Source: Branchiostoma floridae
Taxonomy: Eukaryota; Chordata; Leptocardii; Amphioxiformes; Branchiostomatidae
Assembly: GCF_000003815.2 (NCBI RefSeq)
Contig: NC_049983.1
Coordinates: 16,752,907 to 16,816,906, forward strand
DNA length: 64,000 nt
Direction of reading: 5' to 3'
Of this stretch, positions 8,958-53,755 are shown in pieces; positions within the stretch are counted from its first letter, which is position 1; the number at the start of each line of letters is the position of its first letter. The notes beneath the pieces were generated by a model. That model was not told the origin of the DNA. It saw nothing but the letters and a program-made list of their open reading frames with translations, and made no database searches. A program made the translations under genes and the position numbers.

Positions 8958-9118
8958 GCTGTACCAAGGACGTTACGTCCTTGGCTGTACCAATGTTCTC
9001 CCAGTCACGTGTCTCTGACGTCACGTGCCGGATGTGGCAGTCGAATCATGCGAACCAAGGACGTTCTATCACGTCCTTGTGCGAACAAGCTTGATAGCGT
9101 TCAGCCCAAAACTGCAGG
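8958..9118 (+). promoter_or_regulatory. Putative promoter and 5' exon of NXPE copy 2
   Basis: Contains CACGTG (9006-9011), a consensus CRE TGACGTCA (9016-9023) and an overlapping CACGTG (9022-9027). A conserved exon end with donor GCAGG|GTAAGT follows at 9118/9119. The CRE, the following CACGT and the donor are conserved upstream of copy 4 (26446-26534), which diverges elsewhere, so they are probably functional. The exon would join the acceptor TGTTGACAG at 10223, 7 nt before the ATG. An upstream ATG at 9048 is in frame with that ATG and would add 26 residues. Two micro-palindromic insertions (8965-8983, 9056-9079) lie inside the segment. Confidence 0.65.
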
Positions 9119-15787: not shown

Positions 15788-15948
15788 GCTGTACCAAGGA
15801 CGTTACGTCCTTGGCTGTACCAATGTTCTCCCAGTCACGTGTCTCTGACGTCACGTGCCGGATGTGGTAGTCGAATCATGCGAACCAAGGACGTTCTATC
15901 ACGTCCTTGTGCGAACAAGCTTGATAGCGTTCAGCCCAAAACTGCAGG
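15788..15948 (+). promoter_or_regulatory. Putative promoter and 5' exon of NXPE copy 3
   Basis: Duplicate of the copy 2 promoter: CACGTG (15836-15841), CRE TGACGTCA (15846-15853), CACGTG (15852-15857) and the exon donor GCAGG|GTAAGT at 15948/15949. The two micro-palindromes recur at 15795-15813 and 15886-15909 with the same 7-bp duplications. The about 95 bases just upstream (15690-15783) are unrelated to copies 2 and 4 and contain the octamer-like ATGCAAAT near 15768. Confidence 0.65.
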
Positions 15949-26230: not shown

Positions 26231-26266
26231 CAAGGAGCTTTTATCAGTACTGATAAAAGCTCCTTC
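26231..26266. mobile_element. 36-bp micro-palindromic insertion with 7-bp duplication
   Basis: The palindrome starts CAAGGAGCTTTTATCAGT and is mirrored to CTCCTT. It is flanked by ATAAAAC at 26224-26230 and 26267-26273. The matching flank near 8785 (copy 2) and 15615 (copy 3) reads straight through (AGTAAAGCACTGTG), giving an empty site. Confidence 0.85.
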
Positions 26267-26439
26267 ATAAAACACTGTGCTGATGGATAAAATATTTCAG
26301 CGTTCCCTTAACGACGGAATGTCATCATTCTCTGGACTTTTTGGTCTTCCAAACTTGTATTTTTTTATGATTCATACCACATAGTGAAAAATATTCCCCG
26401 TTTTGCATCCTGCTGCACCAATGTGCTCCCACAGTCACG

Positions 26440-36159: not shown

Positions 36160-36446
36160 GGGTTCGCTTAAAAGGCTGGGCTGTCTACCAGGCCAGGCTA
36201 CCTGGCCTGTCTACCTGGCCTGGCTATCACGTCAGGCTACTCAGATCCCCCATTCATAGCCCGATCATATGGCACTCAGCCAAAATAGCTGATTGACAGG
36301 CATAGTAATTGCTAATCTCCAACAGGAGGTTGGCCTGTCCACCACTGGCTGGGCCCTTGGGAATGTGTCTGGGAGGCCTTCCTTGCAGCTGTCAGGAACA
36401 CAAGTACCAGGACTGTGTGTGTGTATGTTTGTCTGTGTGTGTGTGA

Positions 36447-37244: not shown

Positions 37245-38685
37245 CTACAAATGTATTGTTTTGATCATCGCCCATTCACAAGTTTTTGCAGACAATGCTA
37301 TCTGGAAAAGTCATGCTGCTTGGCGCGGTACAAAAACCTGTGAATTTTCATGAATTTTAACAAAACTAACCAGGAAAATAGGAAGAAACACATTAAATTT
37401 TAAAAATAGTTATAGTGGTGCTGCAAGCTGGAGAGCGAGAAGTACGTTCTGTAAGTGTGAAGATCCGAGCTACAGGCGTCGCCTTCTTCCTGAGGATGGT
37501 ATCAAAGGCAATCAAAGGTATACAGATCTATACAGGCAGTTGACTTTGTGCCCCCTGCACCACCACTCCCCTCCCCACATAAACAGCCGCTGTATGGAGT
37601 GGCTTGGTAGCGGTATTCGTCAAGAGTCGATTGCCAAATTCATCCCCAAACCACGAACACAACGTAAAGCCTCTAGTTGTTATACTTACCGTTTCTATTT
37701 TCTGGCGAAGGTTACAACTCGGAGAAAAATATGCGGGCAAACCACAAGAGTTAGGACGGCCTGGTGCAGAGTCGAGACGGGCAAGACCAGGCACGGTCTC
37801 TCTGGGAATACTAAAAGTTACTATGCGGAACATTCTATATCAGGAAAACAGGGGAGTCCGATTTGAAGATTTTATTTAAAAGGAAATATCACATATACAT
37901 AATTTTTATTTCCCTTCTGATACATATCCAGAATACTTTTTGTTTATATTATGACTTTTTGTAGGGTTATTTGTTCATTTTATATATGCAAAAAGGTATG
38001 GTTCATGTTTGGTTCCCCCTGCAGACCTCGCGAGTTGAGAGTGCTTTCTTGCATGATTTGACCTTCGACCTTATAATCTTATTAGCAGATAGTATCGAGA
38101 TATGTCAGCTTATCGAGAAGTCACATCAAGACTAGCCACATGGAATACCGCAATTTGTTTGACCAAGGAGCTTGGTTTGAAGTTTTTGTTAGCTCAAGCC
38201 TTCAGATTCTGTGAAATTTTAGGGCAAGATAAAGTAGACTGTCCTACAATTTTTTTTAATACACAGTATTAGTTATCAACCGTAACGCTACCGCTTACCG
38301 GTCCCTTGACCGGGGGTTATATAGCAAGGAGTTTTTTTTAACATCCTTGGTTATAACCGATTGGCCCCTAACGTTACCAGGCTCGCGGATCGTTGGTCAA
38401 ATACTAAAATAATAGAAATTAGACAAATAGAGGGAATATTGTGATAGGGGAATCGGCCGGCCAGAGGAGTCAGCTGCATTAGTATCAGTACACGAGCCAC
38501 GGAAGACTCTCTCATTGGTGTACTGACATATTGGTGGCCGGCCGACTCCCCTCAGCCGCACACCAGTCCGCCTCGGCAGGCTAGCTACCAAACCAAGCAT
38601 TGCATCATCATGCAATCCTAGTAGCAAGTTTATGAACAAAGCTTATAAAATTATAGAGTTTGGTGCCGACTTACTGTTGGTAAAT
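37245..38685. other. Intergenic DNA with small palindromes
   Basis: No gene seen. It holds an 11-bp micro-insertion CAAGGAGCTTG (38164-38174) with near-perfect 7-bp flanks and a 25-bp relative at 38325-38349. There is also a hairpin with AGGGGAATCGGCCGGCCA near 38447 against TGGCCGGCCGACTCCCCT ending near 38552. Confidence 0.55.
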
Positions 38686-52739: not shown

Positions 52740-53443
52740 TTTCGTCCAAGGAGGCTTTCTTTAACCTCCTTGTTTCGTCCATTCAACACTTCCTACATTT
52801 CTTTGATTTGTCTGTGGCAGAAAACACAGTAAGTATAAATAACAATGCTCAATTTTAGTGTGGCTGTTCTTGAGAAGTGTTTTGCGCTGTTCTTCTTTTG
52901 GGAGTGGGGGGGGGGGGCGAGAGAGGTTTGTTCCTTTACTGGTCTGTTCGAGGAGGTTGAAAATTCCTTTTTTCAACCTCCTTCGTCTGTTCAAAGAGGT
53001 TATATAACCTCCTTGCTTTGTTAATACACCTTGCACCTGAATCTAGCGATATGATAGACGTTAAATGAGGACAAGAACAACAACAGTTAGCAAGATGACT
53101 GTTTTTTTCAATCAGCAGACGTCAGAATACGGCCTGCGATTTCCCACTGCGATTTCCCACGTTACATGATAGAGTAGAGTAAGCTCCTTGGTAGAGTAGA
53201 GTAGAGTTTATAGATTTATCGATGATAAATTGACCATGCTGACCTGTATCGTCTGAGCTGTATAATTACCAGTTTTTAAGCATAAGCTATCATTCCATAA
53301 GCAAAAACTGGCAAATATTATTAAAGTTTATAAAAAATAAAGTGAAGTAGTGTTTGGGTTTGATGGAGGATTTGTATTCTGTTTGTTCAGTTTCTGCAAG
53401 GAGGTTAAAGAATCACTTCTTTCTTTAACCTCCTTGGTTTCTG
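52740..53443. mobile_element. Cluster of micro-palindromic insertions (CAAGGAGG...CCTCCTTG)
   Basis: Four separate short palindromes: 52747-52772 (26 bp, duplication TTTCGTC at 52740-52746 and 52773-52779); 52950-52984 (duplication GTCTGTTC at 52942-52949 and 52985-52992); 52992-53015 (24 bp, imperfect flanks); 53397-53436 (40 bp, duplication GTTTCTG at 53390-53396 and 53437-53443). A fragment AAGCTCCTTG at 53181-53190 between two GTAGAGT copies may be a deleted member. All lie within about 1 kb upstream of Kelch gene D. Confidence 0.85.
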
Positions 53444-53755
53444 TATGTTGTGATAGAGGTAATGTTTACCATTCTCATGCAGGTGGCCAAAGGTGAAGAC
53501 CCCTGATCGATTTGCATAACAATGTCCATACATGTATTCTTTAGGTCTTTATGGCCTTCCCTGTTGAGAGTGTTGACCATATATGGCCATGCAGTCAGAA
53601 TGGTGAATGGCCTTATTTCTTTCCAAGGAGCTTTTATCAATGAAAGTTCTTTCACATTCTGCCAAGGAATATTTACTTAAATGTCGTTCATGAGTGAAGT
53701 GAAGTCTACTTTATCTGAATACCTTGACTCTCTTCTTGCTAGGATCATATATAAC

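Follow-up and report, generated by a model that had tools for sequence, protein, structure and literature searches.

Short palindromes between 7-bp duplications in Branchiostoma floridae are very probably excision scars of a cut-and-paste DNA transposon

Excision footprints are of a known kind. Excision of a Drosophila P element leaves paired stubs of its repeats at the donor site, repair that is interrupted after excision is a feature of the same elements, and MITEs keep their internal sequence. The P transposase makes its second-strand cut 17 nt within the 31-bp repeat (PMC7776569), and such a long stagger is described as an unusual mark of P. In the accessible part of a Drosophila table of TIR families, only 1360 (P superfamily) is entered at 7 bp, with the target GTTNAAC (PMC3276498), while the corresponding extracts give 7-bp and rarely 8-bp duplications for Galileo, also of the P superfamily (PMC4168063, PMC2775673), and 8-bp duplications for P-like elements of zebrafish (PMC10983969).

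We analysed a 64,000-nt stretch of the Branchiostoma floridae genome (the window; C5:16752907-16816906 in the 513-Mb assembly that was searched). The segment 52740-53443 contains several near-palindromes of 24–40 bp whose ends resemble CAAGGA...TCCTTG and which are flanked by 7-bp direct repeats; kelch gene D of the window has its matches in kelch-like 24 proteins from Branchiostoma. We conclude that each palindrome is very probably the donor-site footprint, or scar, of an excised cut-and-paste DNA transposon rather than a mobile unit, and for two of the window palindromes the ends match a 1,165-bp non-autonomous element. The palindromes listed in a first-pass annotation of this DNA are all present in the window, and the five loci it named carry exact 7-bp flank repeats (52747-52772, TTTCGTC; 53397-53436, GTTTCTG; 8965-8983, GCTGTAC; 9056-9079, TGCGAAC; 26231-26266, ATAAAAC). 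Not all of them are perfect palindromes: those at 52747 and 53397 are centrally asymmetric and the one at 26231 has C rather than G as a terminal base. The common CAAGGA ends are real overall, except that the two middle members of the cluster differ (CGAGGA..TCCTTC and CAAAGA..TCCTTG).

Within the cluster, all 26 bp of the scar at 52747-52772 (minus strand; TTTCGTC at 52740-52746 and 52773-52779) are explained by the ends of the 1,165-bp element, as 18 nt of its left end plus 8 nt of its right end. The 40-bp scar at 53397-53436 (minus strand; GTTTCTG at 53390-53396 and 53437-53443) reads as 19 nt of the left end, 1 nt, and 20 nt of the right end. The two members reported between them are both there, but they are adjacent and have one duplication copy in common. 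The first, at 52949-52984 (the inner call, 52951-52982, is offset by -2), is a putative scar of another subfamily with the arm GGAGGTTGAAAAAAGGAA on the minus strand, flanked by GTCTGTT at 52942-52948 and 52985-52991; its arm has 21 nt in common with locus L024. The second, CAAAGAGGTTATATAACCTCCTTG at 52992-53015, abuts the first and uses the same GTCTGTT on its left, with CTTTGTT (53016-53022, 2 mismatches) on its right. Tandem scars with one duplication copy in common, at 52942-53022, L021:4961-5006 and L035:4950-4995, look as if a second element had inserted at the target copy of the first; those of L021 and L035 are apparently duplicates of one segment.

Three stretches of the window are candidate one-armed scars. 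A 10-nt stub, CAAGGAGCTT, at 53181-53190 (minus strand) lies between copies of GTAGAGT (53174-53180 and 53191-53197) and is a weaker case because the stretch is rich in TAGAG. The tentative cases are CAAGGAGCTTTTATCA... at 53624-53646 (plus strand), whose duplication TTCTTTC (53617-53623 and 53647-53653) is pyrimidine-only, and CAAGGAGCTTG at 38164-38174 (plus strand), flanked by GTTTGAC and GTTTGAA with 1 mismatch. A 21-bp palindrome at 36189-36209, CAGGCCAGGCTACCTGGCCTG, also has a 7-bp direct repeat (GTCTACC), with different ends and surroundings rich in TACC and CCTGG.

The association of these ends with 7-bp repeats exceeds chance. Exact 7-bp-flanked inserts with a CAAGGA or TCCTTG end number 8 in the window, 2 of them segmental-duplication copies, against 0–3 for 59 permuted 6-mers (51 gave 0, 5 gave 1, 2 gave 2 and 1 gave 3). 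Among inserts of 12–60 bp with 5-bp inverted ends, in the window and 15 loci picked because each holds such a palindrome, CAAGG..CCTTG accounts for 16/18 at a direct-repeat length of 7, compared with 1/30 at 4, 0/12 at 5, 0/21 at 6, 1/2 at 8 and 0/3 at 9, none being found at 10. A genome-wide search for CAAGGAGGTT-N(0-30)-AACCTCCTTG gave 1,535 sites, and its reversed-pattern control gave 0. In a sample drawn entirely from contig C1, a 7-bp repeat at ≤1 mismatch flanks 32 of 36 CAAGGAGGTT palindromes (23 exact, 9 with one mismatch); swapped flanks from the first 15 loci gave 0/210 at the same threshold. Four palindromes lack a 7-bp repeat at their outer ends: L001 is a misjoined case in which the true scar is a 15-bp CAAGGAGGTTCCTTG between perfect repeats, the repeat of L002 is perfect but 8 bp long, and at L020:2244 and L025:5008 no flank repeat was found. 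Across 309 kb, made up of the window and 35 loci chosen as palindrome-containing, 43/71 close CAAGG..CCTTG pairs have the repeat at ≤1 mismatch, 30 of them exact. If the density of the window (8 exact cases per 64 kb, of which two are duplicates) is typical, scars would number in the tens of thousands genome-wide.

Filled and empty sites can be compared between paralogous copies within the one assembly, in which no element-bearing allele paired with a corresponding scar allele was seen. Window 3814-31342 consists of repeated segmental duplications bearing genes, presumably NXPE-like, which serve as natural comparisons of this sort. The 19-bp scar at 8965-8983 (CAAGGACGT subfamily; duplication GCTGTAC) and the 24-bp scar at 9056-9079 (CAAGGACGT..ACGTCCTTG; duplication TGCGAAC) recur at 15795-15813 and 15886-15909, at a spacing of about 6.83 kb; being segmental-duplication copies, the members of each pair are not independent. 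At the 8965 site, copies 1 and 2 have the target twice around the 19 bp, while copy 3 reads CTGCTGCACCAATG, with the target once (a single CTGCACC, near 26412). The 9056 insert is likewise missing from copy 3, where the flank is too diverged for an exact reading of the target. Conversely, the 36-bp scar at 26231-26266 (CAAGGAGCTTTTATCAGT subfamily, 18 + 18; duplication ATAAAAC) faces GTTGTTTTCAGTAAAGCACTG in copies 1 and 2, with a single target copy (GTAAAGC).

The source of one subfamily is present in the genome. Locus L037 holds, at 15-1179, a non-coding element of 1,165 bp with CTATTTC on each side and an inverted repeat of 32 bp that is 84% complementary. Its two ends diverge after base 16, which permits a base-by-base reading of scars. 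Ends of the kinds predicted from the scars were then found in facing pairs with a spacing of 1,155–1,168 bp; there are 10 such pairs among 100 places listed of the 208 at which the 20-nt ends of the subfamily occur; the remaining pairs among the same 100 places are 17 scars, alongside 46 single ends. Of the single ends, C7:22082464 is an intact copy with its partner outside the listed 100, and C2:21305682 is a right-end fragment. The latter (C2:21305682-21305906) matches the right end of the family over 225 bp at 100%, the rest of the element being unmatched, and may belong to an autonomous or other relative or to a truncated copy. A DNA search with the element returned at least 45 matches, at least 28 of them full-length; 26 of these are 97–100% identical (the others 94% and 93%), which argues that the family moved recently. 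All 11 copies checked (that of L037 and 10 further ones) have a perfect 7-bp duplication; in the ten further copies only a repeat length of 7 was seen, and swapped flanks matched at ≤1 mismatch in 2/90. No intact element was found through exact duplications in the 309 kb apart from two segmental-duplication pairs, because intact copies are rare.

Scars of the CAAGGAGGTTAAAGAA subfamily have the make-up of an excision footprint, in that a pair of stubs corresponding to the ends of a longer element lies between copies of its target duplication, and the matches of scars to element ends stop at 19–22 nt. By comparison with the L037 ends, the palindromes at 8965, 9056 and 26231 match over 6–7 bases only, that at 52992 over 11 bases in one arm only, and that at 52949 over 0–1 by a strict prefix count, its first base or two being altered; these five belong to other subfamilies. 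The arms of other subfamilies include GAAAAAAGG, ATATA, GGACGT and GGAGCTTTTATC, and ends have been matched to an intact element for the CAAGGAGGTTAAAGAA subfamily only. That the palindromes of these subfamilies are scars too may be argued by analogy of ends, duplication and target, two of them having clear empty sites.

The centres and lengths of the palindromes vary in the manner of footprints. Among 50 listed of the 1,535 there are 42 distinct sequences, 16 of the 50 being full palindromes and 34 not. Although the pattern permitted 50 bp, 47/50 are 20–40 bp long; of the longer three, the 43-bp case is the misjoined 15-bp scar of L001 and both 46-bp cases are tandem scars with an internal duplication in common. 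Some scars have one arm only: a second copy of the duplication lies within 45 nt, at ≤1 mismatch, in 9/25 lone arms vs 5.8% of swapped pairs, and 7 of these 9 are truly one-armed (for example L023, GACACAT + 19 nt + GACACAT), whereas L006 and L018 retain a short second arm. Lone arms were also considered as true transposon ends, a possibility rejected because perfect matches running inward from their starts end at 21–22 nt (L021/L026, L023/L004 and L024/window). A 25-nt match between a window scar and L008 includes 6 bases that are simply similar duplications.

Within one subfamily two kinds of arm occur, ..AAAGAAAGAG and ..AAAGAATCAC, as expected if a longer element had had its left end joined to its right after trimming. 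A search that required 20 nt per arm, to which shorter scars are invisible, gave 17 scars in which both arms reach 20 nt or more among the 100 listed of the 208 end places, and 12 of the 17 are left-to-right joins. Exactly 39 bp is the length of 12/17 (9 left-to-right and 3 AGAG+AGAC), that is, two 20-nt stubs with one G in common, which points to cleavage about 20 nt in from each tip. Besides the left-to-right joins, the 17 comprise 2 left-to-left joins and 3 AGAG+AGAC, so not all scars derive from the exact 1,165-bp element. At C3:16266372-16266411 and C7:5520056-5520096 two left-type ends are joined (AGAG+AGAG), which the element that was found does not explain.

We therefore propose the following sequence of events for the excision scars. 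Insertion of the transposon creates the 7-bp target duplication, as seen around the intact copies. The transposase would then cleave the two strands at different points, one at the tip of the element and one about 20 nt further in, as the ceiling on arm length suggests, so that each flank would keep as much as about 20 nt of a terminal inverted repeat. To judge from the junctions, end joining would fuse the stubs after trimming to a variable extent, at microhomologies or with the addition of a few bases. Since the stubs are inverted repeats, the joined product would be a near-palindrome between the duplication copies. The mobilising enzyme would most likely belong to the P superfamily and resemble that of 1360 and Galileo.

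A P-superfamily-like transposase fits the cut about 20 nt inside the ends, the end joining and the 7-bp target TTNGTNNNACNAA, as in 1360/Galileo; the assignment would thus draw on duplication, target and stub length. The target reconstructed from 43 scar sites, among which the segmental-duplication pair 8965/15795 is counted twice, is TT N GT NNN AC N AA, with GT...AC in 7/43 vs 0.16 expected and.T...A. in 20/43 vs 3.5. The duplications and their GT..AC palindromic target are as in the P superfamily, where duplications measure 7 or 8 bp; the stubs end at about 20 nt, compared with a 17-nt stagger in the P element. The longer element with the same ends, of 1,165 bp, is non-coding and, against 77 P-type proteins, L037 showed no homology (best E 0.047 over 16 residues). 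P-type transposase genes are present in the genome, none tied to scar ends, and no autonomous element with scar-type ends was found there. None of the listed P-type loci lies near a full-length element copy, the nearest being about 0.74 Mb away on C17. A PF21788 domain search gave no match at E 0.001; it is insensitive, since P0114 carries the domain yet went unmatched. The P-type gene of L036 (C19) was rejected as a partner, the 6 kb around it being without paired CAAGG ends. The N-terminal part of that gene (L036:1192-3495) matches the RAG1 importin-binding domain PF12560, a pairing with P-type transposase that is also listed for homologues in other invertebrates.

That the scars were left by a transposase outside the P superfamily, perhaps hAT-like or undescribed, whose cut is likewise widely staggered, is unlikely but deserves weight: the autonomous copy was not found, the stub is 20 nt and not 17, and hobo (hAT), in the part of the source seen, likewise prefers GTNCGNAC (PMC3276498). 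The same source part, however, gives hobo duplications of 8 bp (PMC3276498), and a long stagger is described, in the excerpts at hand, as an unusual P mark. The excision-scar reading is independent of P-superfamily membership. As to the system as a whole, we lean slightly towards an undescribed, recently active P-like system that cleaves its ends at a depth of about 20 nt (two helical turns) and moves several subfamilies that have only CAAGGA[GC][GC]TT in common, its scars, more numerous than live copies, forming a countable genome-wide log of germline excisions and end-joining outcomes.

Copy-back repair from the sister chromatid, interrupted after excision with only the element ends left, would also yield two end stubs between duplications. 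Such internal-deletion derivatives are very improbable here: they should retain ends of tens to hundreds of bases, but scar matches to the element end stop at 19–22 nt, 12/17 long-armed scars are exactly 39 bp, and in the 309 kb exact duplications flank only two CAAGG..CCTTG pairs spaced at 61–9,000 bp, both of them segmental-duplication artefacts. It is scarcely credible that the palindromes are themselves mobile, whether as very short MITE-like or hairpin units that a transposase put in place or that were trapped in breaks with a 7-nt stagger, for although the duplications are clean, paralogous sites are empty and the exact 39-bp left-to-right form recurs at unlinked loci (a recurrence that needs no mobility, the form being two 20-nt stubs joined over one G), a MITE should be a homogeneous short unit and not 42 forms in 50, one-armed forms exist, each arm of the two matched window scars is a prefix of one or other of the unlike ends of a long element, and for the 1,165-bp subfamily an intact element with the same ends and duplication largely refutes it.

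The excision-scar reading alters what the first-pass annotation had seen as a new class of palindromic insertions: the 7-bp duplications, common ends and variable centres stand, but the palindromes are not insertions in their own right. Its suggestion that each could form from a single hairpin oligonucleotide fails, since scars join two different ends, take 42 distinct forms in 50 and include one-armed forms. It had named longer known transposons with these ends and a 7-bp duplication as a finding that would refute its claim; in substance such a transposon exists, although the element is unmatched to a known family. Among the open-licence papers listed, we found no earlier description of such palindromes, and no open-licence paper combining CAAGGAGGTT and Branchiostoma was found. 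As far as that literature shows, the element, the stub of ~20 nt and a genome with more scars than full-length copies are new.

Jumps are usually counted from present copies; here each departure seems to leave a scar that names element, target and repair product. The 28 full-length copies explain at most 56 of the 208 end places, and the scars thus record a history hidden by copy number. They would make chordate germline end joining measurable at scale and are small presence/absence markers. They also advise caution, as a short 'palindromic repeat' between duplications may turn out to be a scar and not a mobile unit.

Several known systems bear comparison, each as described in the portions of the sources available. 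1360 (Hoppel) and Galileo resemble the amphioxus scars in having 7-bp duplications with GT...AC ends (GTTNAAC; GTATTAC/GTANTAC), rare 8-bp cases and a 15-bp palindromic target motif, but the outer target motif is TT..AA in amphioxus vs AA..TT or ANAGT..ACTNT in 1360/Galileo; unlike them, the amphioxus element has CAAGGAGGTT ends, no transposase tied to it, and scars that outnumber full-length copies. The Drosophila P element has an inverted repeat of about 31 bp (amphioxus, 32 bp, 84% complementary), and the amphioxus system is like it in non-homologous joining, its stub length leading one to expect a long internal staggered cut; P differs in its 8-bp duplication GTCCGGAC and 17-nt stagger, compared with 7 bp and about 20 nt. 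MITEs such as amphioxus LanceletTn-2, compared by name only, are like the 1,165-bp element in having inverted ends and no coding match, while the palindromes, unlike MITEs, are without internal sequence. The footprints of Stowaway/mariner elements in plants likewise combine a small duplication with short element-end sequences after excision (PMC4561436), but where the end pieces of Stowaway/mariner are short, the amphioxus scars keep up to about 20 nt per end.
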